This document shows positions 10,544-38,761 of a stretch of 64,000 nucleotides of DNA, piece after piece. The DNA comes from Erysipelotrichaceae bacterium (GTDB taxonomy: Bacteria > Bacillota_I > Bacilli_A > Erysipelotrichales > Erysipelotrichaceae): assembly GCA_017432885.1 (NCBI GenBank), contig JAFRIE010000024.1, positions 1 to 64,000 of the forward strand. Direction: 5' to 3'. How positions within the stretch are numbered: position 1 is the first letter of the stretch; every line of letters starts with the position of its first letter. A model generated the notes under the pieces. That model was not told the origin of the DNA and did not search any database. It saw only the letters and a program-made list of their open reading frames with translations. A program made the translations under genes and the position numbers.

Positions 10544-10549
10544 GTTTTC

Positions 10550-11506: not shown

Positions 11507-11533
11507 TTAAAAAAAGAGCACTCACTGCTCTTT
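11507..11533 (-). terminator. Terminator of the yhf-type operon
   Basis: On the minus strand, stem AAAGAGCA / TGCTCTTT (11526-11533 and 11513-11520) is followed by a T-run and lies over the stop codon of the last operon gene. It closes the ten-gene unit running from 21431 to 11522. Confidence 0.75.
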
Positions 11534-12886: not shown

Positions 12887-12893
12887 AACGCCT

Positions 12894-15076: not shown

Positions 15077-15088
15077 TCGCTTTCCATT

Positions 15089-16183: not shown

Positions 16184-16191
16184 CTTTCTCT

Positions 16192-17154
16192 TTACACCTG
16201 ATACCCTTCGTTGAAATAACTCTCTACATCCAGAAAATACCGTTCGATCAGTTCATCATGAACATCTTCGATATATTCTGCCGCCTTCAGCAGCCGGCTT
16301 ACTTTTTCTCTTTTACTTTCACACATCAGCAGTGTCGCACATCCCAGTTCCTTTCCCGGAATTACCATGGCACTCGCTCCTGCGGTATTGCATACTCTGA
16401 CATAGCCCTTGCCGCTATCTTTCTGTATCTGCCTGGTCCGTTCATCGAAATGACCAAACAGGGAATCCCCGAAACCGTAGAGATCGACAGGACCTTCCTG
16501 CAGGATCATCACATCACATTTTTCCAGGATACCCTTCAGATATTCCGTCAGTTCGTTTCTTGCGCGAAAAGCATCCATCGGTTCAATGACCTGTGATCGA
16601 ATACCCGGGTATTCCTGATCGGAAAATACTATTCCAAAATCTTCACCCGCTTCAACACCGATAGAATCTTTAATTGCCTTCAGCAGGATCTTCCTGTCTC
16701 TGGCGAAGAAACCCAGGGAATTCCCGCTCAGCATCCCGTCGGTATTTTTCTTGATCGTCTGTACCCTATCTTCTTCGATCAGTTTCGAGATAAAACCCAG
16801 AATATTCACACACATCGCCGGAGCTAAAACAGATCCTCCGCCGTCATTTCCGATACCCAGATCATTGATCCCGGCAAAAACGTTGAGAGCCGTTCCGGAA
16901 GAAGATCCGGACATGTAATGACCGGTAAGAGGATTGATCAGTTCCGTATCGACAGCTCTGCCTGCCAGCTGTGATTTCTTGTCGATCGTATGCAAAGCAA
17001 AACCCGTTTTTTCCAGCTTATGCATCAGCGTATTCGGAATAGATGAAACATTCTTGACTCCCGTCAGGATGTCTCCTTCCCGGCAATCAAAAACCTTTAC
17101 CACGGAACGGTAAGGATTCAGTATTGCCAAGCGATGTGCGTCCTTGTAGTTCAT
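16192..17154 (-). CDS. Short amidase-signature family protein
   Basis: A 320-aa protein with the amidase signature: Lys34 in LTGVKNVSS (the family's N-terminal catalytic Lys position), the cis-serine loop MSGSSSGT (81-88) and GIGNDGGGSVLAPAMC with nucleophile-type Ser108. It also has SLGFFARD, equivalent to the family's G-P-x-A-R-D segment. It is shorter than typical amidases (450-500 aa), the missing part mostly at the N-terminus and in the C-terminal substrate region. Amidase-signature enzymes hydrolyse or transfer amide bonds. This gene is not part of the E. coli yhf set and seems an added step. It is flanked by YhfX (1-bp overlap) and YhfS genes. Confidence 0.6.
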   Translation of the reverse strand: MNYKDAHRLAILNPYRSVVKVFDCREGDILTGVKNVSSIPNTLMHKLEKTGFALHTIDKKSQLAGRAVDTELINPLTGHYMSGSSSGTALNVFAGINDLGIGNDGGGSVLAPAMCVNILGFISKLIEEDRVQTIKKNTDGMLSGNSLGFFARDRKILLKAIKDSIGVEAGEDFGIVFSDQEYPGIRSQVIEPMDAFRARNELTEYLKGILEKCDVMILQEGPVDLYGFGDSLFGHFDERTRQIQKDSGKGYVRVCNTAGASAMVIPGKELGCATLLMCESKREKVSRLLKAAEYIEDVHDELIERYFLDVESYFNEGYQV

Positions 17155-18320
17155 TACCAGTTCTTTTCCAGCCTTTCTCCTAAAGGCGAATACAGTCCCA
17201 GCAGTTCCGGCTGTCCGCTCTGTATTCCTTTTACGACAGCGACCTGGGATCTTACCGTGAAGATCTGCGTCCTAAATGTCATCAGCACACATTCGCCGAC
17301 CGGAAATTCTTCTTCAAGTTCAAAATGATAATCGATCGAGTCATCATCCGGAGCAACGGCTTTCGCATGGACTGCCGTTTCTCTTTCGGTTCCGACCAGG
17401 GCATTCTCCATGTGTCCCCGACGATAATGTCCGCCGCCGTAGCAGTAGGATCTCCCGTTAAAACAGTGGGATATTTCGGAGACATATACATAGGCTGGAA
17501 ACTCGATCTGTTCGCTGTATTTATGCAACGGTGTCGTACCTGTCAGCCCATGCCCCGGTTCACCGCTGCTTCCGCCAAGTTCGCTGATCAACGGGATCGA
17601 AGCCGTACAGGTAGCGCTAGGAAGGTTGATGTTAAGATCTGAATAACCGTGCTCCTGCGCGATCTTTTTTCCTCTCTCCATTGCCTTCAGATTTGCCGTA
17701 GGCAGTATCTTGTTTTCTTTCTCTGCATACAGGAGTGCCGGAAAGACCGTCAGACCTCCTACCCGGACATTCTCCAGTTTATCGATTTTTTTGAAGAGTT
17801 CTTCCAGTTCATCGCTGTGAAAGCCGCCGATCTGTCCCGAATACAGCCGGGAGTCCGGATCGGAGATCCGGATCAGCAGTTTCTGTACCCTGCCGCATTT
17901 CTTTGCCGCTTCATTGATCTCCAGGATCTTCTCATAGGAATAGACCGTGACATAGTCCGGCTTCGCTGCAATGATCCTTTCCATGGCGGCTTTCGGGATC
18001 TGTACCAGATGTCCGACATTGGACAGATGGATACCGTTGTCGATGTAGCACAGGGCTTCCCGGTAATCGACAGCCACGGCGCCCTGATAGCCCAGTTTCA
18101 TCAGTTCCTGACCGATCAGAGAATTCCTGCCGATCTGTTTCAGCATGAAATAGAGCTCTATGCCATACTTGTCGGCTTCTTTTTTTATTTCCCTGGCATT
18201 ATAAAGGATACTGTCAAGATCCAGAATGTAGGTATCCGGCAGTATCTTTCCTTCCCGATGCAGCTGAAAGGCACAGTCGACCAGCCTTGAATTTCTTTTT
18301 ATCAGTTTTTCCAGAAACAT
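17154..18320 (-). CDS. yhfX: YhfX-like fold-type III PLP enzyme (alanine racemase-like)
   Basis: A 388-aa protein with an alanine-racemase-like TIM barrel. Schiff-base Lys61 sits in YFMLKQIGRN after the strand TYILDLDSILYNAREIK. The barrel continues to GEPGHGLTGTTP, which would hold the phosphate group, and a C-terminal beta domain follows. YhfX proteins are uncharacterised relatives of amino-acid racemases and decarboxylases. Its start overlaps the Php-like gene by 19 bp, strong coupling. Together with two YhfS enzymes the operon encodes three PLP proteins, which points to an amino-group-containing substrate. Confidence 0.78.
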   Translation of the reverse strand: MFLEKLIKRNSRLVDCAFQLHREGKILPDTYILDLDSILYNAREIKKEADKYGIELYFMLKQIGRNSLIGQELMKLGYQGAVAVDYREALCYIDNGIHLSNVGHLVQIPKAAMERIIAAKPDYVTVYSYEKILEINEAAKKCGRVQKLLIRISDPDSRLYSGQIGGFHSDELEELFKKIDKLENVRVGGLTVFPALLYAEKENKILPTANLKAMERGKKIAQEHGYSDLNINLPSATCTASIPLISELGGSSGEPGHGLTGTTPLHKYSEQIEFPAYVYVSEISHCFNGRSYCYGGGHYRRGHMENALVGTERETAVHAKAVAPDDDSIDYHFELEEEFPVGECVLMTFRTQIFTVRSQVAVVKGIQSGQPELLGLYSPLGERLEKNW

Positions 18321-19246
18321 GTATCTTCTCCTGTTTCGATCTGAGGGTTATTGACGATTCTTGCCGGGTTTTCCGCCAGAAAACGGTGGATCTTTTCTTC
18401 GGATAGACCGTACTGTCTCATCAGCGGTACGACGCTGTCCATGACCGCCAGATATCCTTTTCCGTCAAACGAAGTGAAGTAGGTATGTCTGGAAATGTCG
18501 TTTGACAGCAGCAGATGATCCCCGTATCCCGCTTCCACGATCTTCAAAGCATTCCTGGCCCTGGTCTCGTCCGGCATGTATGCGGTCTTGCCACAAGTAT
18601 CGAAAGCAATGTTGATGCCCTGCCTTAACAAAGACAGATGATATTCACTGTCGTCGATCAGATCCTGGTGACCGAGGATGATCTTGTCCGGATCAACTCC
18701 TTCTTTCAGAAGGATATCGATCGTCTCCTGTGCCACGATCCTGCCGGTATGGGTCGAAACCGCAAAACCGGTCCTTCGTGAAGCGATGCCTGCCGCAGTC
18801 AGGATCTTTCTTTCATTTCCGACAAAACCCTTTGAACTCGATGCGATCTCGGCGATCAGTCCCGCCTTGATATCCGTTCCATCGATCCCTTCCGTCAGGT
18901 CTTTGACATATACTTCGGCGATCTGTTCCGCACTTGCCTCGTTCAGCCACTCCGGATGATATTCTGCCAGATAGAAACCGGTCGAACAGACGATGTTCAG
19001 ACCTGTCTTCTCGGCAATCTCCTTCAGTTTCCAAACATCTCTTCCCATGTCGTTGGTCGTCACTTCAAAAGCACTCTGTATGCCTTGATCCATGGCTTTT
19101 CGGATCTCCGGAACGACTTCGTCAACATTCTGAATAAAAGAATATCCGTCCTTACGGATCCGATCCAGATCGACGATGAAATGTTCATGCGCCAGCGTCA
19201 AACCCAGCTCTTCAGAGCTTATATCTTTTAATATCGTACGAATCAT
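18302..19246 (-). CDS. php: Phosphotriesterase-family hydrolase Php-like, copy 1
   Basis: A 314-aa TIM-barrel hydrolase. Metal ligands: H20-x-H22 (LAHEHF), bridging Glu133 (IAEIASSSKG), H166 (STHTGR), H193 (LGHQD) and D250 (SNDIS). This is the same ligand set as the copy at 12894-13856, including Glu in place of the carboxylated lysine, but the sequences are otherwise fairly different. It corresponds in operon position to E. coli php (yhfV). The gene is preceded by a strong hairpin (19263-19288) and a GAGGAA site. A lactonase or phosphoester role is inferred. Confidence 0.8.
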   Translation of the reverse strand: MIRTILKDISSEELGLTLAHEHFIVDLDRIRKDGYSFIQNVDEVVPEIRKAMDQGIQSAFEVTTNDMGRDVWKLKEIAEKTGLNIVCSTGFYLAEYHPEWLNEASAEQIAEVYVKDLTEGIDGTDIKAGLIAEIASSSKGFVGNERKILTAAGIASRRTGFAVSTHTGRIVAQETIDILLKEGVDPDKIILGHQDLIDDSEYHLSLLRQGINIAFDTCGKTAYMPDETRARNALKIVEAGYGDHLLLSNDISRHTYFTSFDGKGYLAVMDSVVPLMRQYGLSEEKIHRFLAENPARIVNNPQIETGEDTCFWKN

Positions 19247-19262
19247 CAGTATTCCTCAAAAC

Positions 19263-19288
19263 ACAGGCATTCCTTTCGGAATGCCTGT
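19263..19288 (-). terminator. Strong hairpin inside the operon between yhfU and php
   Basis: A perfect 11-bp inverted repeat, ACAGGCATTCC / GGAATGCCTGT, with a 4-nt loop. On the transcribed minus strand it is followed by GTTTTGAGG, a weak U-tract, so it is more likely a partial terminator or an mRNA 3'-end stabiliser than a full stop. It would set different levels for the regulator/transport part and the enzyme part. Confidence 0.55.
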
Positions 19289-19297
19289 TCTTTCTTT

Positions 19298-19675
19298 TTA
19301 TTCCGGCTTTCCTTCGGCCTTGTCTGTCAGCGCTTTGACTAGAGCAGGAACGACTTGATCGGTGTGTGATTTCACATAACCAAAAGCCTTGTGGTTTCCT
19401 GCATAGACCATATGCCGGATCTGTTTCTCGTTCGGGCAGTTTCCCTGTTTGGATACGACCAAACAGTTGCTATAGCCCAGGACCATGATCGCGGTAGCCA
19501 GCGAACCGCCTCCGCCTGTCATGCAGCTGCCGAGATAGTAATCCATCTCGCCGGCCTTGACTTTTCTGGCAGCGACCATATCCGGATCGACAAAGGTCTC
19601 GACCTTGTCCGCAAAATCCTTGTCAATGATCTGTTTTGTCTGTGTAGCCGTCAAACCACAACATTCAATCTTCAT
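19298..19675 (-). CDS. yhfU: YhfU-like DUF2620 glycine-rich protein
   Basis: A 125-aa protein matching the DUF2620/YhfU pattern: MDYYLGSCMTGGGGSLATAIMVLGYSNCLVV followed by KQGNCPNE and a C-terminal helix. No signal peptide is seen. In E. coli and here it lies beside yhfT (21 bp gap), which suggests that the two form a transport or sensing pair, with YhfU a small cytosolic partner. That is inference from gene order. It is well translated (AGGAGGCTTTC upstream). Confidence 0.78.
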   Translation of the reverse strand: MKIECCGLTATQTKQIIDKDFADKVETFVDPDMVAARKVKAGEMDYYLGSCMTGGGGSLATAIMVLGYSNCLVVSKQGNCPNEKQIRHMVYAGNHKAFGYVKSHTDQVVPALVKALTDKAEGKPE

Positions 19676-19696
19676 AAGAAAGCCTCCTTCAAAAAA

Positions 19697-21007
19697 TTAT
19701 AAGCTAACGATGTGCAACAGGATAGCCAGGTTGTACAGCAGACCAACTGCAACAGCAGCCAATGGACCTACAGCGGACTTCGGAATACGCTGACCGGTTA
19801 CTTCATTCAAAGTGTAGAAGCCGCCGACAGCCATCAGACCGACAGCACCCCAGATCGCATTGCCGGCCATGAAAGCACCGATCGTCAGAGCCAGGGTCGT
19901 GCAGGAAATCATGGCGTCACGGATGTGGTCACCGCACTTTGTCAGTTCAGGGAACTTGGACAGAGCCTTGCCTAAGAGACCTAAGAGCTGAATTTCGATG
20001 AATTCAACAACGAAACCGGCAACCGGAGCCAGGAACCATACGGAATCCGGTACCATTGCACCCACCAGCATGACAGCAGTCAGACCTACAGCCTGATAAA
20101 CGCCTGTTGCCAGAGCGGTAGAAACGATCAGCGGAATAAATGCGAAGATAACGCCGATCATAGCCAGGTAGAAGATGTTCATGTCGCCTGCCGTGATAGC
20201 GGAAGCGAGGATGACTGGCTGATATGCCTGAGCCAGGATCTTGATACCTAAAGCATTCAGAGCGCCCTGTACGCACAGATAGATCCAGTTCTTCTTGATT
20301 CTTTCAGCGTTCTTCGTGAAGATGTTTTCTTCTTCTTCCGTCGTTTCGATCGCTTCGGAATTCTTGGAAGCCTGTACCGCATAGGCAACCAGGCAGATCA
20401 TGCCTGCCAGCATTGCGAATGTGTAAGGATATAAAGCGATTGAAGTTCCGCCTACCGAAACACTGCCTACAATCGTGCAGACGATATAGACAATACCGGT
20501 AATGACAGCAGCGATAATGCCCTTCTTAGCTCCGAACTGGCCGGCTATGGCAATTGCCGGATACATACAGAAGATAGGAAGGACTGGGCTTGTGATGTTT
20601 GTCAGGTCATTCAGGAAGTTGTATGGCAGACCATTGAACAGTGCACCGATAGCCTGTGTACCATAGGCACAAAGCAGACCATAGGCAGCACCTAAAGCCA
20701 GAGCCACATACTTGTTTGGTGACCATGCACCGATACAGTCCGTAGCGATCAGGATCAGGTGGCAGGCGATCAGGCCTGTACCCAGCCACTGGTTGAAGCC
20801 GGCCATGACCCAGCCAAAGCCCATGCCGGTAACAACAACAGCGAATTCCGGACGGGACATTCTGCCTTCCATCAGTTCCGGGAAGACAGGTCTAGCGCCA
20901 TCGTTGAAGTTGGAGATGCACAGGTGGGAAAGCAGGCTTGCCCAGGCGGCGATCGCTACCAGAACGACAGTTCTAAGCAGTTGTGGAAATACAAAATTTG
21001 TAACCAT
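19697..21007 (-). CDS. yhfT: YhfT-like polytopic membrane protein (probable transporter)
   Basis: A 436-aa integral membrane protein with about 11-12 hydrophobic helices. The reading frame extends to 21067, but the ATG at 21007 has AAGGGG about 8 nt upstream and avoids overlap with the PRD gene. Gly/Ala-rich helices and a cytosolic loop (KNSEAIETTEEEENIFTKNAERIKK) mid-protein resemble the YhfT family. That family is unassigned, but its size and place in a catabolic operon suggest substrate uptake. No phosphotransferase EII domain is visible. Confidence 0.75.
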   Translation of the reverse strand: MVTNFVFPQLLRTVVLVAIAAWASLLSHLCISNFNDGARPVFPELMEGRMSRPEFAVVVTGMGFGWVMAGFNQWLGTGLIACHLILIATDCIGAWSPNKYVALALGAAYGLLCAYGTQAIGALFNGLPYNFLNDLTNITSPVLPIFCMYPAIAIAGQFGAKKGIIAAVITGIVYIVCTIVGSVSVGGTSIALYPYTFAMLAGMICLVAYAVQASKNSEAIETTEEEENIFTKNAERIKKNWIYLCVQGALNALGIKILAQAYQPVILASAITAGDMNIFYLAMIGVIFAFIPLIVSTALATGVYQAVGLTAVMLVGAMVPDSVWFLAPVAGFVVEFIEIQLLGLLGKALSKFPELTKCGDHIRDAMISCTTLALTIGAFMAGNAIWGAVGLMAVGGFYTLNEVTGQRIPKSAVGPLAAVAVGLLYNLAILLHIVSL

Positions 21008-21035
21008 ATTTTTACCCCTTCTTTTTGTTGGTTGA

Positions 21036-21431
21036 TCACTCGGTATCGGAACAGGTGTGCCATTCACCCGTTTCCTTAAACTGAGCGATTAAATTGTTTA
21101 TATGAAGCAACGCATATCCCTGTTCTGTTTCGTTCAGCGGGTTCTTTGTCGCATTCATAACTTTTTCTAGGATCTCTTCCGATTCCTTATAAGTATCCAG
21201 AGATCTTAATTCTTCCAGCACGGTTTCCGGTATTTCATCGACCGGTTCCTTGCTTACAAGTCTGCCGTAGGCGGCACAAAGGTGGGCGATAAAAGGAGCG
21301 GCATTCTCTTCTTCCAGAACAACGCCGTATTCGTCACGGAACAGAGCGATCACGTTCTGAATATCTTCAATGTCTTCATCGGTAATCATTCCGCCTTCTT
21401 TATACAGTTCAAAACGTTCCGTAAAATCCAT
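21036..21431 (-). CDS. yhfY: YhfY-like single PRD-domain regulator
   Basis: A 131-aa protein that is a lone PTS regulation domain: all-helical, with FIAHLCAAYGRLVSKEP (conserved His and Arg of the PRD) and GYALLHINNLIAQF near the C-terminus with a second His. There is no DNA- or RNA-binding domain, as in E. coli YhfY. It may receive phosphate from HPr/EI and relay carbon status to the operon, perhaps through a partner protein. It starts inside the stop codon of the zinc-ribbon protein (TGATG overlap), and the YhfT gene follows 28 bp on. Confidence 0.75.
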   Translation of the reverse strand: MDFTERFELYKEGGMITDEDIEDIQNVIALFRDEYGVVLEEENAAPFIAHLCAAYGRLVSKEPVDEIPETVLEELRSLDTYKESEEILEKVMNATKNPLNETEQGYALLHINNLIAQFKETGEWHTCSDTE

Positions 21432-27514: not shown

Positions 27515-28726
27515 CTAACTTTCTTCTTCGAGAATTTTATACTCTTTCAATAATTCGATCCGTTTCTTGCCAAGACGGATACTTTCCTGGGGATCGTTCT
27601 GTGCCATATTTCTTGTTTCTTTTAGGTAAACCACAACACGGCTGATCCAGGCAATCGGAAGCAAGTAAGGTCTTTTCTTTAAATACTGATACTTGTTTTC
27701 CATGCTACTCAAAGGAAGAAAAACAGAAGACAGGATCGACGTTGGACTTTTTCTATTTATTGCATTGATTGTCATCGTACTGGAATGCAGCCTGGAAAGG
27801 GATGAGGCTCCGTAAATACCGCTTTGCATGATATCTTCTAAAAGTTTGTTCTCATCGATCGCATCAATATCCCAGTCTTTTAGCACATCTCGTAAATCCT
27901 TATCGTTAATGATACGGTTCATTCCGATCTTGTATATTGCCCGGCTTAAATCGAAAGCTCTTGCATCTCTCAAATCTTCTTGCAGCCTGGACCATTCGAT
28001 GTCGTTCTGATATGAAATGGAATAAAGAAGAATATCTCCAACCTGACGTATTCCAAAACCGCTGTGAAGAAAATGTTTAAACGCATGCAGGATCAGATAA
28101 AGAAGATGATCTGTATGAGAAAGCGTATAGAAACCGGTTCTATAGATTCGTTCTGCGATCGCTTTTTCCTGCGCATTTTCAAAATAAGCATTTAAATAAG
28201 AATATGCCGAAGAAGGAGGAAATAAGGTCTTGTGTACTTCAATATATAAATGGCTTTCTTTCTCCTCGTAAGTAACCTCAAAAGATTCTTCTATGTTCTG
28301 ATTTGAATCAACAAGTTTCAATCCATACGCCAGCAATGCCTCATGCAGTGCAGGATATGCTTCTGAATCAATCCATAGATCTTCATCGGAGGAACATCGT
28401 TCTTCCGGATGCGGATACAAGCTACGGCAGACGATCCCCTTTATCACCAGCGGTTTTAGTCCTTTTTCTAACAGATAGTCATAAAGAAGGACAAAATCGG
28501 CGCTTCTGCACGCCTGGGTCTGTGCGGCTTCTTTCGCTCTTTTCACATAATAAGGAAAACGCTCCTTTTCTTCGATCGCTTCCACTGCCATCGGCAAAAG
28601 CATATGGTTCATCGCCAGATGAAAAAAGCGAAGACTCTCTTCGCTGTTCATTGAAGATAAGGAGCATTTCTTTTTTCTGACTGCACAGGAAAATGCTTCC
28701 AGAAGTTTTTCTTCAACTTTATTCAA
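27515..28726 (-). CDS. Nucleotidyltransferase-like protein (NTP_transf_5 type)
   Basis: A 403-aa protein resembling the NTP_transf_5 family. The segment KGLKPLVIKGIVCRSLYPHPEERCSSDEDLWID (about 92-123) matches its 'KG......YP....R...D.D..V' core; the acidic pair would hold the metal and nucleotide. EVHKTLFPP and the HLLYLILHAFKHFLHSGFGIRQVGDILLYS region (about 213-245) are also typical. Its precise reaction is unknown. The family is often found beside PqqD-like and HprK-like proteins, exactly as here. It is the last gene of the cassette, 3 bp after the anchored acidic protein. Confidence 0.7.
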   Translation of the reverse strand: MNKVEEKLLEAFSCAVRKKKCSLSSMNSEESLRFFHLAMNHMLLPMAVEAIEEKERFPYYVKRAKEAAQTQACRSADFVLLYDYLLEKGLKPLVIKGIVCRSLYPHPEERCSSDEDLWIDSEAYPALHEALLAYGLKLVDSNQNIEESFEVTYEEKESHLYIEVHKTLFPPSSAYSYLNAYFENAQEKAIAERIYRTGFYTLSHTDHLLYLILHAFKHFLHSGFGIRQVGDILLYSISYQNDIEWSRLQEDLRDARAFDLSRAIYKIGMNRIINDKDLRDVLKDWDIDAIDENKLLEDIMQSGIYGASSLSRLHSSTMTINAINRKSPTSILSSVFLPLSSMENKYQYLKKRPYLLPIAWISRVVVYLKETRNMAQNDPQESIRLGKKRIELLKEYKILEEES

Positions 28727-28729
28727 ATT

Positions 28730-29002
28730 CTATTCTCCTGCAGACTCCTGATCATCCGGAATGGTAATGATGATGTCCCCTCCGTCTTCCTGAATCGTAG
28801 CTTCCTGTATTTCATCCTCCTCGACAGGCTCATTTTCGATTTCAGTCTCATTCTTTATGTTTTCTTCGTTCTGTTCCTCAACCGGCTCACTGTCTATGCT
28901 TTCTTCTTTACCTGTCTGTTTCGGAAACAGAAAAGCATATACCGAAAGAACACAGATCGCAACAACGAGCACTGCAATGATTATTAAATAACGCTTTTTC
29001 AT
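28730..29002 (-). CDS. Small membrane-anchored acidic protein
   Basis: A 90-aa protein: one N-terminal helix (IIIAVLVVAICVLSVYAFLF, about 6-25), then an extracytoplasmic tail of about 60 residues dominated by Glu/Asp/Asn. It ends with a hydrophobic strand GGDIIITIPDD (74-84). No family recognised. It overlaps the PqqD-like gene by 4 bp, so it is a co-translated part of the cassette. It might act as a tether or a substrate; no evidence decides. Confidence 0.6.
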   Translation of the reverse strand: MKKRYLIIIAVLVVAICVLSVYAFLFPKQTGKEESIDSEPVEEQNEENIKNETEIENEPVEEDEIQEATIQEDGGDIIITIPDDQESAGE

Positions 29003-29283
29003 TTTTCCATCACCTGAATATAGTTTCTTTCCAGCAGCTGTTGAATCAAAGAATGTACATCTTCCGAAATGTTATCTTGCTGATCAACATCGTACTCCTG
29101 TTTCATTCTTTGACAGAGCTCTTTTTCATCAATCCCTTCTTCCAGCTGTTTCCAGCAGAAAGCCCCTGTTTCATTTAAACTTGTTACATATGGTACATCC
29201 TTACGTAAATGTTTCGCGGCAATCAGTACATTCTGATCGGCTATTTCACATAAGATGACTCCTTTACGGCTGATATATTTCAT
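28999..29283 (-). CDS. PqqD-like (RRE) protein
   Basis: A 94-aa winged-helix protein of the PqqD type: an N-terminal beta sheet (ILCEIADQNVLIAA), LNETGAFCWKQLEEG (the family's 'LN.tg..iw..l..g' core), then helices ending ISEDVHSLIQQLLERNYIQVM. PqqD proteins bind leader peptides of ribosomal natural products and deliver them to modifying enzymes; as such they are RiPP recognition elements. The YxxPxL motif of the nearby 81-aa peptide is a plausible ligand. It overlaps the HprK-like gene by 4 bp. Confidence 0.82.
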   Translation of the reverse strand: MKYISRKGVILCEIADQNVLIAAKHLRKDVPYVTSLNETGAFCWKQLEEGIDEKELCQRMKQEYDVDQQDNISEDVHSLIQQLLERNYIQVMEK

Positions 29284-29996
29284 AAATACTTCTCCAGATA
29301 TTTACTGCAGAGCTCGACAGCCTCCTGATCGGCTTTGTTTATAAGTTTAATAACAGGATACTTCTTTAATAGCACATCTGCAATATTAGAGAGTTGACGG
29401 ATGTCCTCTTCGTTTTGAGGTTCAACCGCAAACTGATGAAACAACGGCGCCAGAGCTTCCTTCACAGACATCTCTCTGATCTCATTGTGATCGCCTTTCT
29501 CAAGAAAAACGATTCCACCCAATGGTGCATCCGCTTTTCCCTTAAACCGTTCCTTTCCGTTCCAGGGAGACGGATACACGTGAATATTGCCGTCATTCAG
29601 TTCAAGATAAGGCATGTCACCGCAGATCAGCTCAATCTGATCTCTGTACCGTTTTTTCCAGTTTTTGTACTGCGTCGTCTTTCCCGTTCCGCTTCTTCCG
29701 ATAAACAGCCAGGCTTTCTGTTTATAACGGATCGCCACAGCATGGAAGAAAACCCCATTTTCCCTTAACAAGGCAAGGGAAGAAAGATTGATCAGGGACT
29801 TATATTCGACATAGTCGTCATCCTGATTCTCTGTATAGTAGGGACGCAGTTCCTCCATATAATCAATCGGAGAAAGAATATCGTATTCCTCATTTTCCGA
29901 CAAACGAATATATGGACGCATATATAACGGCGTCTTTTCATAATGGAAAGCATAACGAAGCTTATGCTGTCCGTAACTGATTTCGTATACTTTCAT
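29280..29996 (-). CDS. HprK-like P-loop kinase-type protein
   Basis: A 238-aa relative of the C-terminal domain of HPr kinase. The P-loop FIGRSGTGKTT lies at 98-108, preceded by FFHAVAI (His86, matching the HprK 'HA' strand) and followed by ICGDMPYL (Asp127). The canonical HprK signature region for HPr phosphorylation is reduced. Such proteins occur beside PqqD proteins; some phosphorylate peptides in lasso-type clusters. The start is at 29996, only 4 bp from a terminator U-run, without a visible Shine-Dalgarno, so translation is expected to be weak. Confidence 0.78.
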   Translation of the reverse strand: MKVYEISYGQHKLRYAFHYEKTPLYMRPYIRLSENEEYDILSPIDYMEELRPYYTENQDDDYVEYKSLINLSSLALLRENGVFFHAVAIRYKQKAWLFIGRSGTGKTTQYKNWKKRYRDQIELICGDMPYLELNDGNIHVYPSPWNGKERFKGKADAPLGGIVFLEKGDHNEIREMSVKEALAPLFHQFAVEPQNEEDIRQLSNIADVLLKKYPVIKLINKADQEAVELCSKYLEKYL

Positions 29997-30000
29997 AATT

Positions 30001-30046
30001 AGAAAAAGGATCGAGAAAACCCGTTAGAGAGTTCTCCCAATCCTTT
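30001..30046 (-). terminator. Intra-operon terminator/attenuator after the 81-aa peptide gene
   Basis: On the minus strand a stem of about 15 bp including G-U pairs (arms 30032-30046 and 30005-30019; AAAGGATTGGGAGAA with TTTTCTCGATCCTTT) is followed by TTTTTCTAATT. It stands 11 bp after the peptide stop and directly before the kinase ATG. It would leave the adhesin and peptide highly expressed and the modifying genes low. Confidence 0.75.
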
Positions 30047-30056
30047 GTTTTAACGA

Positions 30057-30302
30057 TTAGCCTTCCCAGAGCCTGTTCTCGATGTAGTAGTCGTAGTCGT
30101 TTACGTCGACAGTACCGTCTCCATTATAGTCGGCATCAGGGTTATCTCCTCCCCAAGCGATCTCTTCCCACCAGGTGTCGAAATCCATGCCTTCGGCAAA
30201 GTTTGTTCCCTGACCGGTTCCTTGACCGATTACTGTTCCGCCGGAACCTGTCTCATCATCCAGTTCAAACAATACAGGTGTACTATATTTGATTCTCAGC
30301 AT
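30057..30302 (-). CDS. 81-aa peptide with YxxPxL leader motif and single dockerin-type calcium loop
   Basis: A candidate precursor or structural peptide. Residues 6-11 are YSTPVL (YxxPxL), the recognition motif of leader peptides bound by PqqD-like RRE proteins. A Gly/Thr-rich stretch follows (GSGGTVIGQGTGQGTN, 19-34), then an acidic/aromatic part (WWEEIAW, 44-50). Next comes a complete EF-hand/dockerin loop, DYNGDGTVDVND (58-69; ligands D58, N60, D62, T64, D69), and DYYIENRLW. There is no signal peptide. AAGGAGG lies 9 nt upstream; the VWA gene ends 14 bp before. No homology search was run, so 'precursor' is inference. Confidence 0.65.
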   Translation of the reverse strand: MLRIKYSTPVLFELDDETGSGGTVIGQGTGQGTNFAEGMDFDTWWEEIAWGGDNPDADYNGDGTVDVNDYDYYIENRLWEG

Positions 30303-30316
30303 TTTATAATACCTCC

Positions 30317-33300
30317 TTAGTCGCCTTCGGCCGTTATTTCAATATCTGCAAGCGGTTTGGAGTTAGCTGAATCCGTAATACGCAGACCGCCGGTTCCGAC
30401 CTTGCCGTTACCAAAGCTGATTCTACGGGTCTTGGTTCCTCTAACCGTTACACCATCCATCGTCTTCCAGAATGGCGTAAACTCACTTCTGGTATCTGTC
30501 TTAATCAATCCGCTCGCATCCCAGTATCCAAGATATCCGTTCCGGACATACTTGTAAGTACCGTCTTCGTTCTTGCCTCCACCGAATACACTTCTCGGGC
30601 TCAGAACTACCGTAGCGCCGCCCGTTGCGTTCTGAATCGTCAGCGTCTGCACAACAGTAGAAGACTTACCGGTTTCTTCATTTACCACATGGATAACATA
30701 TCCGAGTTTAGAATACTTCAGATCATCAACTGCAGAAATATACCACATGTTACGTAAGACTTTATCACCCTTGTTGTAAGTGTAGTGGGTATAAGCCAAA
30801 TCATAATGATCAGGAACTTCCTTGAGATAGTATACCGTATCGACAACAGGATTCATTTCTGTACCCTTTGTGCCTTTTCCGCTGTAGTAATCGCTGCCCC
30901 AGCCGGTAGCCTCACCGTTTCTGACCTTTTCAATATAGGCATAGTCATATACGGTTCCCTGAGCATCCGTTGCCCACAAACCGCCGGTATGCTTGCCATC
31001 GTATGCCGTATCTACTCCAGCTGTATCGGCAACATAATCCAGATTTCCGGATTCTGCCTTACCAACGATCTGATCATCCGTTACAGCAGCACCTGGATAA
31101 GATCTGTAATAACCGCCATAGAGATGATTTTTCTTAGTCTCCTTAGCAAGATTGAACTTATATCCGGTAATCGTTCCATCGGTCGTAACCGGTATCAGAC
31201 GGCTCTCCTGGTTTCTGATCTCGATCTTCTCAACAGTATTATCACTTGAGTGATATACATAGAAGTATTCGTAATTCTGCAGTTTGTTTGTAAATTCTAC
31301 ACTGTACTGCCTATTACCAACAACACCGTCCGTTACTTTCGCTACTTTATTTTCGACAACCGGCTGAACATCACCTTCCGGTGTGAACGGTCCGCCTGGA
31401 CTCGTACGGTGCTGAGTTACAGCCGTTACTGTCTCCAACAGGAACTCAGGATGATCGCCGGTATCCTCGACTTCTGAGAACTCGAAGTTGGAAGCTTCTG
31501 GGACGTTGATGAAACGTACAGACCATCCGGCTTTTAACTCAAGAGTGAAGTTGCCTGTATTAGGTACATGCAGCTTATAACCGACACGGTTTCCGTTCTC
31601 ATCGTACAGATGGTAAGCACCGGAATCGTTCTCATGAGCGAACCAGTCGGCAAATCTTTCATTGGCAGTTGTATCCCCATACTTCCTTATCAGATCATTA
31701 TCGGTCATTCCCTTTTCTTCCGGTAAACGGTTATCCCAATCCATATTGAAGGTATAACCGTTGCCTTTATCATCAACGAGCTTACCGTTAATTGTGAATG
31801 TTTTATCGGAAATATTCGTAACGTTGCCATCGGCATCCTTTAAAACCTTCTTGACATCAATACCGGATTTGACACGGTTAACCGCGGTCAGACTCTGGTC
31901 GATGTATTTAGCTATCGTCTCCTGGTCTTCAATCAGGAATCCATCTCCATAGTATGCATCTGCACCATCTTTGACCATTGGATTAATGATTTCTTCAATC
32001 AGGCCATAGTGGTAATCTATGTTGGTTTCAGAAATCGTGAAATCATATCCATGTTCAAGGACATTTTCAACTTCTTGACCTTGTTCATTAGTTTCCGTAA
32101 CAACAACACCTGGCGCTACGTAGAATGTATAGGTCCAGTTATTGCCTTCATTCAGAACAATATAAGCACTTGTTCCGCCAGCCTGAGGAACCGCATATGG
32201 TTCGAATTCTTCCGCCGGATCCTGATGGGCTTTTCTACGTTTTAACAGAAGCGTGACACTTGCCTGACGGTCTTCACCGGCAGTCAGATCATCTTCAAAT
32301 TCCTTCTTGATAGACAGTTGCATAGACTCAAGAGCCATATTCTGTATTGTGCCCTGGATGTATTCTGCTTCAACCGGCTGTGTACCAACGACCGTAACAG
32401 TAGAACCAGTCCTTGAGGTAGTCTTATATGTCGCATTGACCTCATCCGTATTCGTCTTCAAAGCATAAGAGCCCTGTGCCGTAGCAGTAGGAGCCTGCAG
32501 CTCTACGATCTGTGCCTTTTCTTCCTCAGAAAGAGTAGCATATGTTTTAGTGCCGTTATTCAGTTCGGCTACCAGGTCATAAGCATCCTGGCTAGGCCAT
32601 ACACGGAAAGTAACGACATAATGAACTCCATCTTCCAACTGGAAATTCGGTCCCATATTCCAGTGAACAGCGCCGCCGTCCTTATCGTACGTTGCAGCTT
32701 CGCAATGATCGGCTTCTCTAGTGGTCCATTCTGTCATATGAGCCTCATCGGCACCATACTTGTTTCCTTCACCACCCCAACGATAATACTTGAAACTATT
32801 AGGATCAACTGTCTGCATGACTTTCATTTCAGCATTAGTCAATTCTGTTATACCATCGGTAATATGAACATCACCAAAGCCAAGGGCAGAAGAGATGGAT
32901 TGAGCAATGTTTTCAAAAGCAATATTCAATTCAGATTCATTCGTTGCTAAAACGGCATTGCTTTCAGGAAGACCGGCTTCAGTAACAAGATTTTTCACTT
33001 TCGTGACATCATTAGAAACACCGATTGCATAAAAAGTCTTGTTCTTTAAAGCAATAGATTTGACTTCCTCAACCGCTGCTTTAAAGTTTAAGTTGTATGG
33101 ATTTGGGTCATTGCTTCCGTCTCCAAACAAATAGTCATTACTAGCATAAAACGATGTATTCATCATATTAGTGCCATTTAGAACGCTGTCAGCCACATCG
33201 CCACGGCTTACACGGAAGGTTGGATCGCCATCAGTAACAAAGATGATAAACGTCGCTGCATCAGAATCAGAGTTTGCAATACGGTTTGCAATAGAAAGAG

Positions 33301-35173
33301 CTTTCTCCCAGTTCGTTCCACCTCCGGATGTACATTTGCCTAAATAATTATTTCCTGTAAAAGCGCTGGCTTGTGAAGTCCATGTACCTACACGAATTGC
33401 TGAAGTATCAAAATCAACTAACGCAAGTTTGACCAAATTATTACCCGATGCATCCGTTTTTCCTTCTAATGTGGTTGCCATTGCGGCAAGTGCATCTTTG
33501 GCTTTTTTGATACGCTGATCATTGGCTGGAACATTTTGTTTTTGACTTCCATCCATATTCCACGCCATACTACCGGAGCTATCAAACACAACAATGACGT
33601 TAGCCTTTGACTTATTCTCTATTGTCTTTTCTGCTGCAGCAATACTTAATGCTATGGTATTCGTGCCATCGTCATTATAAGTAGAAGATTTGCTGAACTG
33701 AGGAGCGTCATCGCCTTCCGGCCAAGTCTCTTCCTGAGGAGCAGGAACAGTTCCACCAGAAGTTGCCTCTGTTTTCTTCTTATATACCATGTAAATATTA
33801 TTACGGAGATCATTCCAACTATCATTAGTTGTTCTATATTCTATATCTCCATAATTCTTTCTCAACATTGGATAAATCCTTGTTCCGGTTCTAGAACCTA
33901 AATGAGCAGAATCAAATTCATATCCTTCAATATCATAGATCAGATACATATTATTAGCTGAAAATTCAGGGGTTCTTGACGGTGTTAAACTATTTCCGTT
34001 TGTATCAACATAGTTAATGTTGTATGAATAAAGACCATAGTACCATGAGATGACATAGGTCGAGAAATCATCTGCTTCAAACGTTGCAGTCTGCTCAACA
34101 ATAACTTCCTCTTCTCTTACTCCTGTTTCTGTATGTTCAACTTCTTCCGTATGTTCAACTGTATCCGTACGAACATATCTGTGTTCCGTTGTATATTCGA
34201 TCTCAGTTACGGTTTCTACACCTACCTGAACCTCTTCCGTTCCGACAACAACCGTAACAGTCTCAGGTTCATAATAAGTTTCAGTAACTGTATATCTCTC
34301 AAATTCATATCTGTAGCCAAGCCAAGTAGTAGGGTCATACCATACGAAATCAACCTTTACCTTTACAACTCTGGTCTTTTCGACTTCTCTGGTCTTTTCA
34401 ACCATTTCTGTACGTTCTTCGGTGATTTCTCTTGTCTCATAGACAGGAACTTCTTTCTGAACTTCATGAGGTACTTCAACATCTTCATAGATATCTACAT
34501 CCTCATAGGTAGTAACAGTTTCTGTCCAAGTATACTCGTAAGGAACTTCAACGGTTTTTGTCTCACTGGTCATTGTCGAAACGACCGGTTCAACGCCATA
34601 AACAAGCATGCCTTCGTCATCGACAGTTTCCTTTACATGAAGCGTTTCAAAATCAGTGCCATAAAAACCGTCTTCGTCTTTATAGGATAAAGTAACAGAT
34701 ACCTTCTTGTCAGAATAGTCTTTCGGTTCAATCTCTTCGTTGTTGTACCAGAAAGAAATATCTGCACCCTTCACTACAGAATCACTTCCACGTTCTGCCA
34801 TGACTGCTTCGATTGCTGCAGGATCTGCTTCCGAAACGACAACTTCCGTGCCTTCCGGAACAGTACCTGCTTCGAAAGAAACAGTAACCTTTAAATCATT
34901 GACTTCATATTCTTCATAGAAGTCCTCAGCATTAAGAATAACGGTAGGCTCTTCTTCTCCGCCTTCTTCGACAGGATCATTTTCCGTCTGCTCCTGTGGC
35001 AAAACGGCAGATTCCTCCTCTGTCCCATTATCCTCTTCTTCCTGCACCGGTAATACTTCTGTCGTATCCACACCGGTATCTTCCTCGGCATGTACGATTC
35101 TAGCCGGGATGATTTCCAGCATCATGGATACAGTTAGTACCAGGGCTAGAAATACTTTTAAGAATTTATTCAT
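30317..35173 (-). CDS. Large secreted VWA-domain surface protein (adhesin-like)
   Basis: A 1618-aa secreted protein. Signal peptide 1-29 (cleavage near VHA-EE). An acidic segment (30-80) and beta domains follow, with a 150-residue Val/Glu/Thr-rich repeat zone (about 207-362). A VWA domain (about 524-770) has an intact MIDAS site: D531-x-S533-x-S535, T620 and the TDGD at 647-650. More beta-rich, Cna_B-like units continue to the end. It resembles pilus-tip adhesins but the last residues (DIEITAEGD) contain no LPxTG motif, membrane helix or basic tail, so it has no visible wall anchor. A GAGGAGG site precedes the start. It is co-directional with the 81-aa peptide gene. Confidence 0.8.
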   Translation of the reverse strand: MNKFLKVFLALVLTVSMMLEIIPARIVHAEEDTGVDTTEVLPVQEEEDNGTEEESAVLPQEQTENDPVEEGGEEEPTVILNAEDFYEEYEVNDLKVTVSFEAGTVPEGTEVVVSEADPAAIEAVMAERGSDSVVKGADISFWYNNEEIEPKDYSDKKVSVTLSYKDEDGFYGTDFETLHVKETVDDEGMLVYGVEPVVSTMTSETKTVEVPYEYTWTETVTTYEDVDIYEDVEVPHEVQKEVPVYETREITEERTEMVEKTREVEKTRVVKVKVDFVWYDPTTWLGYRYEFERYTVTETYYEPETVTVVVGTEEVQVGVETVTEIEYTTEHRYVRTDTVEHTEEVEHTETGVREEEVIVEQTATFEADDFSTYVISWYYGLYSYNINYVDTNGNSLTPSRTPEFSANNMYLIYDIEGYEFDSAHLGSRTGTRIYPMLRKNYGDIEYRTTNDSWNDLRNNIYMVYKKKTEATSGGTVPAPQEETWPEGDDAPQFSKSSTYNDDGTNTIALSIAAAEKTIENKSKANVIVVFDSSGSMAWNMDGSQKQNVPANDQRIKKAKDALAAMATTLEGKTDASGNNLVKLALVDFDTSAIRVGTWTSQASAFTGNNYLGKCTSGGGTNWEKALSIANRIANSDSDAATFIIFVTDGDPTFRVSRGDVADSVLNGTNMMNTSFYASNDYLFGDGSNDPNPYNLNFKAAVEEVKSIALKNKTFYAIGVSNDVTKVKNLVTEAGLPESNAVLATNESELNIAFENIAQSISSALGFGDVHITDGITELTNAEMKVMQTVDPNSFKYYRWGGEGNKYGADEAHMTEWTTREADHCEAATYDKDGGAVHWNMGPNFQLEDGVHYVVTFRVWPSQDAYDLVAELNNGTKTYATLSEEEKAQIVELQAPTATAQGSYALKTNTDEVNATYKTTSRTGSTVTVVGTQPVEAEYIQGTIQNMALESMQLSIKKEFEDDLTAGEDRQASVTLLLKRRKAHQDPAEEFEPYAVPQAGGTSAYIVLNEGNNWTYTFYVAPGVVVTETNEQGQEVENVLEHGYDFTISETNIDYHYGLIEEIINPMVKDGADAYYGDGFLIEDQETIAKYIDQSLTAVNRVKSGIDVKKVLKDADGNVTNISDKTFTINGKLVDDKGNGYTFNMDWDNRLPEEKGMTDNDLIRKYGDTTANERFADWFAHENDSGAYHLYDENGNRVGYKLHVPNTGNFTLELKAGWSVRFINVPEASNFEFSEVEDTGDHPEFLLETVTAVTQHRTSPGGPFTPEGDVQPVVENKVAKVTDGVVGNRQYSVEFTNKLQNYEYFYVYHSSDNTVEKIEIRNQESRLIPVTTDGTITGYKFNLAKETKKNHLYGGYYRSYPGAAVTDDQIVGKAESGNLDYVADTAGVDTAYDGKHTGGLWATDAQGTVYDYAYIEKVRNGEATGWGSDYYSGKGTKGTEMNPVVDTVYYLKEVPDHYDLAYTHYTYNKGDKVLRNMWYISAVDDLKYSKLGYVIHVVNEETGKSSTVVQTLTIQNATGGATVVLSPRSVFGGGKNEDGTYKYVRNGYLGYWDASGLIKTDTRSEFTPFWKTMDGVTVRGTKTRRISFGNGKVGTGGLRITDSANSKPLADIEITAEGD

Positions 35174-35361: not shown

Positions 35362-37131
35362 CTAAAAGTCCTTCGCCAGTCTGGCGGATTCCTCCTTACT
35401 CAGCTCCTTTACTTCCTTGTTCATGACCCCGTAGACCTTGTCCGCAAGGGAGAGGACGCTAGGACGGTGTGTCGTTACAATACAGGTCCTGTCTCTGTTC
35501 TTTTCCATGATATTGCGCAGCACTTTACGCTCCGTTGCCACATCCAAAGCCGATGTTGCCTCATCCAGAAGCAGTACCGGCGCATCCCTCAATAATGCCC
35601 TGGCAATGGCAATACGCTGCGCCTGTCCTTCGGAAAGACCTCTTCCTCTTTCACCAACCGAAGCGTTGATTCCTTCGCTTAAATCCTTCACAAAATCCCA
35701 GGCACAGGCCAGTTTCAGACATTCGATGATCTCCTCATCCGTCGCCTCTTCCTTGACGATCCGCATGTTTTCAGCAATCGTTCCCGAAAGAATGGTATTC
35801 CCCTGCGGCACATAGGCAAAGAAAGAACGGATATCCGCGTTTCCGGCGATGAAATCTCCTTCATCTGTTTCGATCCCGGCTCTTCCTTTCTGCGGCTCTA
35901 CCAGCCCTAAAATAAGCCGAATCATGGTCGTCTTGCCCTGACCGGAAGGTCCGATCAAAGCGGCGATCTCGCCCGGTCTGGCGCTAAAGTCCGCATTGCA
36001 GATGACCGGTTCATTTTCCTCATAGGCAAAGTCGACATCTTCCAGGACGACCTTCACTTTCCCTTCAACCGGTCTGGAAGAAAGATGCTTCTCCTTCGGC
36101 AGCTGGGCCAGTTCCCGGATCCGGTTGGCACTGATCGAAGTATTCAGGAACGACGGAAAGATCGATACGACATTGTTAAAGGCATTGGACATGCGGCTGC
36201 GCTGGGTCAAAAACAACGTCATCGTGCCATAGGTGATCTGCTGATTCCAAAGCAGCCAGAGGCAATAGCCAAAGGCGATAAACTGAATGAGATTGGAAAC
36301 TATTGTCATCAGGACGTTCACTTTAATCGAGAAAAGATTGCTTTCAAGGGCGATATCCCGGAAACTGTTCTGCCAGTCTCTGAGCTTCTTTCCATACAGG
36401 AAAGATACTCCGAAAGACTTGATGCTGTCCATGTTGTAGAACGTCTCCACTTCAAAAGTCATGACCTTGGAAGAGACTTCCCTGGTCTTCCGGCTGTATT
36501 CCCGCTGTTTTCCTACCACAAAACGGCTCATCAGAAGCATCACCGGAGCCGAAGCCACCGCCAGCAGGGCCATGACCTTACTGTAGTTCCAGATGACCAC
36601 AAAAGTCGCCATAAGCGAATAAAGGGCGATGATGATGTTCGGGATCCAGGAGATCGCGTTGCCCGATACCGTACGGGTATCGTTGGTAAAACGATTCAGG
36701 ATGTCGCCGCTGCGGTAGCGGCTGATCGAAAGCCAGTCGGAATCCATGATCTTGTCGAAGATGTCCGCCTGTATTTCGTGGTGTATTTTCAGTTTCAGTT
36801 TTGTCGAGACCCGGTTCAGCAGATTGTTGAAGACCAGGGAGAACAGAGCGCTCGATACCATCAGCAGGATCAGTAAAGGAAGCTGCTCCTTCTTGTAGCC
36901 CGTTACGATATCGATGATGTACTTGCCGATGACGCCTGCGGCTAGGGCTAGGGTGGAGCTGACAATGCCTAAAAGAGTATAGAAGACGATGGCTCCCTTG
37001 TATTTTTTCGAATAGGAAAAGATCCACTTCCAGTCTTCGATGATTTCCCCGAAAGTGCCTTCCTTATAGCGCTTGTAAAGGGTACTTAAGGAACGGAACG
37101 ATGAATTTTCTTCCTGATTCTTTTCACTCAT
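35362..37131 (-). CDS. ABC exporter half-transporter (fused membrane and ATPase domains)
   Basis: A 589-aa type IV ABC half-transporter. Six membrane helices (about 50-330) precede an ATPase with Walker A GPSGQGKTT, signature LSEGQAQRIAIARALL, Walker B VLLLDEATSALD and the H-loop IVTTHRPS. There is no N-terminal C39 peptidase domain, so it does not cleave a leader. Substrates in the class are lipids, peptides or drugs. It lies 4 bp after the LCP gene. The position before the adhesin/peptide operon makes it a possible exporter of a small peptide, which is inference. Confidence 0.85.
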   Translation of the reverse strand: MSEKNQEENSSFRSLSTLYKRYKEGTFGEIIEDWKWIFSYSKKYKGAIVFYTLLGIVSSTLALAAGVIGKYIIDIVTGYKKEQLPLLILLMVSSALFSLVFNNLLNRVSTKLKLKIHHEIQADIFDKIMDSDWLSISRYRSGDILNRFTNDTRTVSGNAISWIPNIIIALYSLMATFVVIWNYSKVMALLAVASAPVMLLMSRFVVGKQREYSRKTREVSSKVMTFEVETFYNMDSIKSFGVSFLYGKKLRDWQNSFRDIALESNLFSIKVNVLMTIVSNLIQFIAFGYCLWLLWNQQITYGTMTLFLTQRSRMSNAFNNVVSIFPSFLNTSISANRIRELAQLPKEKHLSSRPVEGKVKVVLEDVDFAYEENEPVICNADFSARPGEIAALIGPSGQGKTTMIRLILGLVEPQKGRAGIETDEGDFIAGNADIRSFFAYVPQGNTILSGTIAENMRIVKEEATDEEIIECLKLACAWDFVKDLSEGINASVGERGRGLSEGQAQRIAIARALLRDAPVLLLDEATSALDVATERKVLRNIMEKNRDRTCIVTTHRPSVLSLADKVYGVMNKEVKELSKEESARLAKDF

Positions 37132-37135: not shown

Positions 37136-38761
37136 TTAATTATATCCCCAAACGGTCATATCCGCATCCGGCAGTATCTTCTGTTCCAGGATCTCTCCGG
37201 TCAGAACATTCAGGATCTCTTCCCTAACGAAGTTGATCTGCGTCTGGTAAGGATATACGACATACAGCATCGTTCCCGGCATGGAGACCGTTTCGTCATA
37301 TGTACCGTAGCCGCCCAGATGGTAGTAGATGATGTTCCAGTTTCTTCTGTTCAGCAGTTCTTCGCCAGCCAGTTCCAGGATGGAGGACGGATCGATGTTT
37401 GTCGCCACGGAACCGGAAAGGTTGTTCAGCAGGTCGTTGGCTTTCTCCAGCACTTCTCGGCTGGTCAGTTTACGTAAGATGGCTCTTAGAACGATGGCCT
37501 GGTGCTCGTTACGGTCGAAGTCGCCGCTTGATAGCGTATGTCTTTCCCGGACATAGTCCAAAGCTTCTTCTCCGTTCAGATGGATATTGCCTGCCGGGAA
37601 GTAGCTGAAAATGCCCTGGAAGTCATATGGATTGTAGATGTCGATGCCGCCCAGGGTATCGACGATCTTGCGGAAGGTCACGAAATTGACTGCCGCATAA
37701 TATTTCACATCCAGATCAAAGAGACCATTTAGACCTTTAACGGTATTCAGGATCCCGTCATTGCCTAGATGGGTCAGTTTATCCATGCCGTCGCTTAAGG
37801 CAGGATTTTTCAGATAGGTATCTCTTGGAATAGAAACGATCAGAGCCTGGGCTGTTTCCGGATTGACAGTTAATAGAATATCGACATCGGTACGTCCCCA
37901 GATCGACAGATACTCGCTTCGGGTATCGTTGCCGGCTACAAAGACTGTAAATGCCTTTTCCGAGATCCGGCTGGAAATATCGTCTTCCACTTCCACTTCC
38001 GTTCTAAAAGTCTTCAGAACGATTGTATCTTCCGTGATGGAGGCGTATTCGCTTGTCTCCTCCAACATGTCTACTGCCATGTCACTCAGAAGAATGCACT
38101 CCGCAACACCGCCATAGAAAGCCTGCAAAGTTTCCCAGAGCGTTTTTCTAGAACGTATGGTCACACTGCCAAGATCGTCGTTCAGCTGTTCCAGAGCCTG
38201 TTTCTGAGCTTCTGAAGCACTTTGCGGATACAGGAAGATAGAGTCCTTATAATCAAAAAGATCCTCGCTCACTTCAGTGGAAAAGCCCAGTTCCGGATGT
38301 CTGTTCCGATAGTCGGATGTAAAGGTGTAGACATGGAAATCCTGAACATCCGTATGGATCCTGGTACTGAAGAGGTTCTCGACCCTCTTCTCAATGTATG
38401 GAAGGGTCACGGAAGCAATGGCCATCAGAATACAGAGAATGATCTCGACGACCATCAGAGCTTTTCCTTTCTTCTTGTGCTTCAAAGAAAGCACCAGGAA
38501 GATGCCGCCCATCAGAAGGACGATCGCCATCAGCATCAGCCTCCACAGTCTCGGCAGGAGATAGAAGGTATAGATCCGAAAAGACAGATACAAAGAAATC
38601 AGCATGAAAACAAATCCGGCAATCATGACAGGAGATGTTTTTCTCTTCTTCTGTCTTGTCGTTTTCTGTCTGGCTGTTCTTTTCTGTTCTTCCTTTTTAG
38701 GAACAACTTCCTGCGGGACTTTCTTCTTCTGATGTCTTCCGATGATCTCGGTATTGGTCAT
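37136..38761 (-). CDS. LytR-CpsA-Psr (LCP) family wall-polymer transferase
   Basis: A 541-aa membrane protein. A Lys/Arg-rich cytosolic start (about 1-48) is followed by three helices (about 49-125) and an extracytoplasmic accessory domain. The LCP domain has SIPRDTYL (catalytic Arg of the pyrophosphate site), NTVKGLNGLFDLDVKYYAAVNF, LGGIDIYNP and YVRERHTLSSGDFDRNEHQ. LCP enzymes transfer undecaprenyl-linked glycopolymers to peptidoglycan or protein. That role fits the polysaccharide genes on both sides. It is divergent from the metallophosphatase gene. Confidence 0.88.
   Translation of the reverse strand: MTNTEIIGRHQKKKVPQEVVPKKEEQKRTARQKTTRQKKRKTSPVMIAGFVFMLISLYLSFRIYTFYLLPRLWRLMLMAIVLLMGGIFLVLSLKHKKKGKALMVVEIILCILMAIASVTLPYIEKRVENLFSTRIHTDVQDFHVYTFTSDYRNRHPELGFSTEVSEDLFDYKDSIFLYPQSASEAQKQALEQLNDDLGSVTIRSRKTLWETLQAFYGGVAECILLSDMAVDMLEETSEYASITEDTIVLKTFRTEVEVEDDISSRISEKAFTVFVAGNDTRSEYLSIWGRTDVDILLTVNPETAQALIVSIPRDTYLKNPALSDGMDKLTHLGNDGILNTVKGLNGLFDLDVKYYAAVNFVTFRKIVDTLGGIDIYNPYDFQGIFSYFPAGNIHLNGEEALDYVRERHTLSSGDFDRNEHQAIVLRAILRKLTSREVLEKANDLLNNLSGSVATNIDPSSILELAGEELLNRRNWNIIYYHLGGYGTYDETVSMPGTMLYVVYPYQTQINFVREEILNVLTGEILEQKILPDADMTVWGYN

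Follow-up and report, generated by a model that had tools for sequence, protein, structure and literature searches.

We analyzed a gene cassette on a 64,000-nucleotide stretch of DNA from an Erysipelotrichaceae bacterium (the window; positions 1 to 64,000 of contig JAFRIE010000024.1, assembly GCA_017432885.1), in which a giant secreted protein, a small peptide and a set of putative peptide-modifying enzymes are encoded side by side. The source is a metagenome-assembled genome (MAG) of 1.8 Mb that is ~73% complete, with the window on contig C9, and its closest named genomes are mainly Erysipelotrichaceae. On the minus strand, genes for an LCP glycopolymer transferase, an MsbA-like ABC exporter, a 1618-aa VWA protein, an 81-aa peptide, an HprK-like protein, a PqqD-like recognition element (RRE) for ribosomally synthesized and post-translationally modified peptides (RiPPs), an anchored acidic protein, an NTP_transf_5 protein, an Ig-domain protein and two Wzc-type proteins follow one another downstream, and the setting is a capsule-type locus. 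The six genes from the VWA protein to NTP_transf_5, which an earlier note on this DNA had singled out, are all present as a single minus-strand run, and the relevant unit also takes in the ABC exporter. The features are as follows.

30317..35173, minus strand: 1618-aa giant secreted protein with a Sec-type signal peptide, a VWA domain and DUF7604, lacking LPXTG and a C-terminal membrane helix
30320..31264, minus strand: C-terminal domain (CTD) of the giant protein, from an alignment of 24 homologs; no Pfam match; AlphaFold2 (AF2) models all-beta, second half Ig-like
30057..30302, minus strand: precursor-like peptide of 81 aa that has a separate ribosome-binding site and lies 17 nt after the giant gene
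30270..30287, minus strand: YSTPVL leader motif, peptide residues 6-11
30093..30131, minus strand: EF-hand-type loop DYNGDGTVDVNDY, peptide residues 58-70; weak Pfam EF-hand_5 match (E 0.2)
30005..30046, minus strand: 18-bp hairpin with a T-rich tail, 3' of the peptide gene
29280..29996, minus strand: HprK-like P-loop kinase, 238 aa, LppK/PsmK-like
28999..29283, minus strand: PqqD-like discrete RRE, 94 aa; top PDB matches PbaB1 (9x90) and LppB (9x8z); Asp at the LppB D70 position
28730..29002, minus strand: membrane-anchored acidic protein with the conserved C-terminal tail GDIIITIPDDQESAGE
27515..28726, minus strand: NTP_transf_5 nucleotidyltransferase resembling LppN and PsmN; some relatives carry it as a fusion with a GT2 glycosyltransferase
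35362..37131, minus strand: MsbA-like ABC exporter without a peptidase domain, LppD-like; adjoins NTP_transf_5 in several relatives
37136..38761, minus strand: glycopolymer transferase of the LCP family, encoded upstream of the exporter; context of capsule/cell-wall polymers

Recurrence of the cassette and the C-terminal domain of the giant protein

We searched 146 family genomes for the kinase and fetched the neighbourhoods of the matches. The core order of the window was found in four of them (G136, G135, G051 and G059), a scan of named genomes brought in further loci, among them those of Eubacterium sp. UBA3782, Ruminococcaceae RUG11086 and Clostridiales UBA7011, and genus g31 contributed eleven further cassettes with 15 giant genes. 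The non-redundant total was 20 cassettes with 24 giants from Bacillota MAGs of the rumen and gut, in which the core order was conserved. Nearly all loci come from MAGs, in which contamination or misassembly might distort individual cases but not the repeated pattern. A small open reading frame (ORF), mostly with a [YW]xxP- or FMP-type start, lies between the giant gene and the kinase at every locus, and each giant is paired with a single peptide, also where giants stand in tandem: L115 encodes three tandem giants, each with a peptide, and a single shared enzyme set, and L120 encodes two, the peptide of the first being decayed and lacking a start codon (4757-5168). A literature search for the VWA/PqqD/HprK combination returned nothing relevant.

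In the 1618-aa protein, Pfam recognized VWA_2 (E 8e-9) and DUF7604 (E 4e-11). Its last 240-315 residues align with the C-termini of the 23 other giants and the remainder differs; KEV, DD..Y and T.D are invariant in this CTD, which gave zero significant matches to Pfam. CTD carriers were 5 of the 146 family genomes and 16 of 316 order genomes, and none besides the window's own was found among 395 class-level and 392 phylum-level sampled genomes. The CTD was seen only directly upstream of peptide-plus-kinase cassettes, and every CTD gene with enough downstream sequence is followed by a peptide gene and, after it, by HprK-PqqD (L123 ends at a contig edge). The link between the peptide and a surface protein that the earlier note had drawn is thereby supported. 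Giants with an intact N-terminus carry a signal-peptide-like segment, except for L028, whose called start may be internal. None of the 24 has an LPXTG motif or a C-terminal membrane helix; because sortases are encoded in 13 of the 16 genomes, this lack is not for want of a sortase.

Two AF2 models of the CTD, of moderate confidence (pLDDT 60 and 69), were all-beta with an Ig-like second half. Foldseek returned zero matches for them at E <= 1e-3, and VIA-align returned nothing beyond Ig-like sandwiches of a generic kind, such as 3zk4 (Z 9.4 and 8.6) and the CBM56 structure 5t7a (Z 8.7), with no cohesin among the matches listed for these moderate-confidence models. A CTD profile search of the PDB gave TGF-beta matches at chance level and nothing else.

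The anchored acidic protein was present in 16 of the 20 cassettes. Eight of these 16 proteins carry a lipobox and the other half an N-terminal transmembrane helix, so that the anchored state is conserved and the means is variable. A variable acidic spacer leads to a C-terminal tail like GDIIIEIPED.ES.GE, which is clear in most of them.

The peptide and its recognition by the RRE

The 81-aa ORF starts 17 nt past the stop of the giant gene with a strong AAGGAGGT ribosome-binding site in front, and a hairpin stands 3' of the peptide gene in all 22 intergenic regions examined. Because a small ORF and a hairpin were found at the equivalent place in 20 related loci, the ORF is not a chance frame. 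A leader motif of the form [YW]xxPx[LIVFMA] occurs in 17 of 22 peptides, compared with 0.46 expected from shuffles. The cores are highly variable, long and acidic, and no Sec signal was seen in the peptides; the closest peptide to that of the window, from Eubacterium sp. UBA3782, shares 60% identity. A relaxed EF-hand loop is found in 9 of 22 peptides (0.17 expected in shuffles) and a strict EF-hand-type loop in two, those of the window and L051 (0.025 expected). The earlier note had described an intact dockerin loop; the calcium-type loop is there, and it is one EF-hand-type loop and not the two-repeat domain of a dockerin. Dockerin_1 (PF00404) had zero matches in the window's genome. Since many peptides lack the loop, calcium binding is not the whole story. 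Most EF-hand-type peptides share a Gly-flanked motif (GSGQGT, SQGTSG or GSGQSS), which is a candidate phosphorylation site judging from its sequence.

No peptide homologs were found outside peptide/RRE/kinase cassettes, an occurrence that would have spoken against the note's view of the peptide. Three weak additional matches, in G104, G105 and G127, were rejected as they lie inside unrelated genes for TsaE-like and MalK-like ATPases.

The 94-aa RRE matched PqqD (PF05402, E 1.1e-15), the single such match in the window's genome, and among PDB entries phmmer matched it to PbaB1 (9x90, E 9e-4) and LppB (9x8z, E 0.0023). In LppB, Asp70 hydrogen-bonds the Tyr of the leader, and the RRE of paeninodin, with its preference for Trp, has another residue at that position (PMC13381572). 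The equivalent residue was Asp or Glu in 11 of 11 YxxP cassettes and acidic in none of the nine WxxP, FMP, AFTP or motif-less cassettes (Fisher p 6e-6, a value inflated by relatedness). Genome G211 (L113) has one Y-type and one W-type cassette, and the RRE matches the leader in both. This co-variation agrees with the prediction from the LPP crystal structures and provides the strongest evidence that the peptide is in fact read by the PqqD-like protein. With the confinement of the homologs to such cassettes, it upholds the earlier assignment of the peptide as a leader-bearing substrate tied to the RRE and the HprK-like kinase. Tandem pairs of PqqD-like genes were also observed in L029, L113, L115 and L117-L120, the second copies in g31 being diverged and lacking one segment.

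The HprK-like label of the kinase comes from a P-loop and weak ScmC and PEPCK matches (E 0.008 and 0.03), backed by the family alignment. In L051 of Eubacterium sp. UBA3782, kinase and RRE are fused in a single 407-aa ORF (9872-11095). On the kinase tree, 20 CTD-linked kinases belong to a single starred group comprising 23 rows, and the CTD label changes 4 times compared with 17.3 in shuffles; a single origin was neither established nor rejected (AU p 0.064). A search of a plasmid collection gave distant HprK-like matches and nothing closer. Two CTD-negative rows stand within the CTD-linked clade. L059 (1643-5658) possibly holds a diverged version, with a 455-aa secreted protein that has a similar end, near YITKDGIVVQ, and a 64-aa ORF followed by HprK-PqqD-NTP_transf_5, and in L056 a 120-aa ORF precedes HprK.

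Modification enzymes and known systems

The protein at 27515-28726 matched NTP_transf_5 (PF14907) with E 4.6e-36, and in four g31 cassettes (L113, L117, L118 and L120) a GT2-like domain is fused to the C-terminus of this enzyme, as tested for L113 and L118 and judged by length and sequence for L117 and L120. The exporter matched MsbA_rel (E 4e-75), though under NCBIfam's own cut-off. Both NTP_transf_5 and the MsbA-like exporter recur in relatives, the exporter in many cassettes. LppK and the paeninodin kinases phosphorylate Ser of their precursors (PMC13381572, PMC9266682); PsmK phosphorylates pseudomycoidin, and PsmN, an annotated nucleotidyltransferase, is required for hexose addition to the phosphorylated form (PMC9266682).

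The closest known system is that of the linear polyphosphorylated peptides (LPPs) (Popov et al. 2026, PMC13381572), which shares with the cassette a discrete RRE, an HprK-like kinase beside it, an NTP transferase, an MsbA-like exporter, a YxxPx[VL] leader, a capsular locus and the lack of a cyclase. The two differ in several respects. From the LPP leader consensus YxxPxVLxHQxIxFETxxS, the YxxPx[LIVF] part is kept here and the HQxIxFETxxS part is missing. LPP clusters have a SipW-like leader peptidase, LppS, and the CTD cassettes do not: by motif and mutual similarity, with weak Pfam support, an S26-like peptidase was assigned within 4 kb of none of the 20 CTD-linked loci compared with 12 of 40 CTD-less HprK-like kinase loci (Fisher p 0.005), and TIGR02228 (SipW-like peptidase) had no match in the window's genome at its ~73% completeness. 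Conversely, all CTD cassettes include a giant CTD surface protein and nearly all of them an anchored tail protein, and the main text of the LPP paper makes no mention of surface proteins, adhesins or lipoproteins (PMC13381572). The cassette is thus LPP-like in its working, yet it is not to be classed as a plain LPP member. The earlier suggestion of a different system does not wholly hold, since a cyclase-free HprK/RRE/NTP-transferase family was published in 2026 as LPP. In gut Clostridia MAGs, L073 (5921-10239) and L092 (5343-11624) are LPP-like clusters that encode an S26-like peptidase, an HprK-like kinase, NTP_transf_5 and an MsbA-like exporter but no CTD protein.

The lasso peptides paeninodin and pseudomycoidin (PadeK, PsmK, PsmN; PMC9266682) likewise share an HprK-like kinase, an NTP transferase and a [YW]xxP leader bound by a discrete RRE, but they have a cyclase, and the core here is long, acidic and often provided with an EF-hand-type loop. 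An Asn-synthase-like lasso cyclase was absent among the annotated cassette genes, no genome-wide profile search having been made for it, and no B2 leader peptidase (Transglut_core3) scored above cut-off in 16 genomes. Dockerins share the calcium-loop consensus with some of the peptides but have two repeats, whereas the loop here is single and not conserved through the peptide family. Sortase-anchored VWA adhesins of Gram-positive bacteria have a signal peptide, VWA and repeat domains in common with the giants, but end in the LPXTG and transmembrane helix that all 24 giants lack. What is new here is the CTD on the giant, the pairing of one peptide with each giant, the anchored acidic-tail protein and the EF-hand-type loop that roughly half of the peptides carry.

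Proposed function and rival explanations

A peptide modification system is likely to be real at these loci. We also consider it somewhat better than even, because of the one-to-one pairing and still judging from sequence, that the peptide and the giant protein act together. The whole reading, in which an LPP-like cassette makes a leader-guided modified peptide as the dedicated extracellular partner of the giant, appears to us evenly balanced. In such a pathway, the RRE would bind the YxxPxL leader, as residue co-variation and solved homologs suggest, and the kinase, by analogy with LppK, PadeK and PsmK, would phosphorylate Ser/Thr downstream of it. NTP_transf_5, GT-fused in some relatives, would then add a nucleotide-derived or sugar group, and the MsbA-like protein would export the peptide. 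Outside the cell, the peptide, often bearing an EF-hand-type loop, may meet the CTD, the anchored tail protein probably being a third partner, and may help to hold, fold or link the giant at the capsule-bearing surface. A more specific version is sortase-independent display, in which a phosphorylated and glycosylated peptide, in many cases with an EF-hand-type loop, and the tethered acidic tail hold the giant adhesin via a new C-terminal sorting domain, perhaps to the capsule; this version is tentative and somewhat doubtful.

Several points weigh against the partner reading. A leader peptidase was not identified at the CTD cassettes, the strict leader motif is missing in 5 of 22 peptides, and the EF-hand-type loop is degenerate or missing in about half of them. 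LppK took Ser and not Thr (PMC13381572), and the window peptide has Thr in place of the conserved Ser of its relatives' GSGQ motif; deletion of lppN had no effect in a heterologous host (PMC13381572). The co-variation of RRE and leader is not phylogenetically independent, as W-type and FMP-type cassettes each form clusters on the kinase tree. Linked inheritance alone could keep peptide and CTD adjacent, and a contact between them is a prediction.

The peptide might instead be an LPP-type secreted natural product, a signal or antimicrobial, with the giant merely co-transcribed for delivery, reception or immunity and without a structural role. The enzyme set is that of LPP, whose role is not known, the core is highly variable, and separate expression at a high level is suggested by the hairpin 3' of the peptide gene. 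Such a product would not account for the one-to-one pairing with a CTD giant at every locus, tandem arrays included, and the more LPP-like kinase loci, with an S26-like peptidase, are without a CTD; we regard this explanation as unlikely. That the phosphorylated peptide and the anchored tail form an intracellular checkpoint for capsule export or secretion of the giant, rather than a surface part, would suit the LCP and Wzc-type gene setting and the lack of a Sec signal in the peptides. It is improbable, however, given the LppD-like exporter of many cassettes and the lipobox in 8 of 16 tail proteins, which should face outward.

The cohesin-dockerin pairing that had been suggested for the peptide and the adhesin gains little support from a single EF-hand-type loop that many homologs lack and a CTD model that is only generically Ig-like. 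Pfam annotated no cohesin domain among the neighbouring proteins of the cassette. A similar docking, in which the calcium loop binds the giant directly and modification is not needed, could draw on the strict loop of the window and L051 peptides, the relaxed loop in 9 of 22 and the all-beta CTD models. Nevertheless, there is no dockerin pair, several cassettes keep the CTD and the kinase without any loop, and the CTD matches only generic Ig-like folds, so that we consider it very improbable.

Neither LPPs nor paeninodins have a known biological role (PMC13381572). In the loci described here, the same set of enzymes repeatedly accompanies a defined surface protein, which has a new C-terminal domain, and an anchored tail protein, so that the role can now be tested. 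If the peptide does anchor or mature the giant as its extracellular partner, this would be a new adhesin display route in Gram-positive bacteria, RiPP chemistry would serve as a protein-sorting tag instead of yielding a secreted product, and LPP/paeninodin chemistry would gain a cell-surface role.

Elsewhere in the window, we noted by eye, at 4691-8666, a TIR-domain-like protein (6639-8666, plus strand) and a TrkA/channel-like protein whose C-terminus is RyR-like (4691-6559, minus strand) in head-to-head arrangement, possibly a defence pair. At 11522-21067, again by eye, there is a metabolic run of two phosphotriesterase-like proteins, two PLP-type aminotransferase-like proteins, one phosphopentomutase-like protein and a membrane permease.

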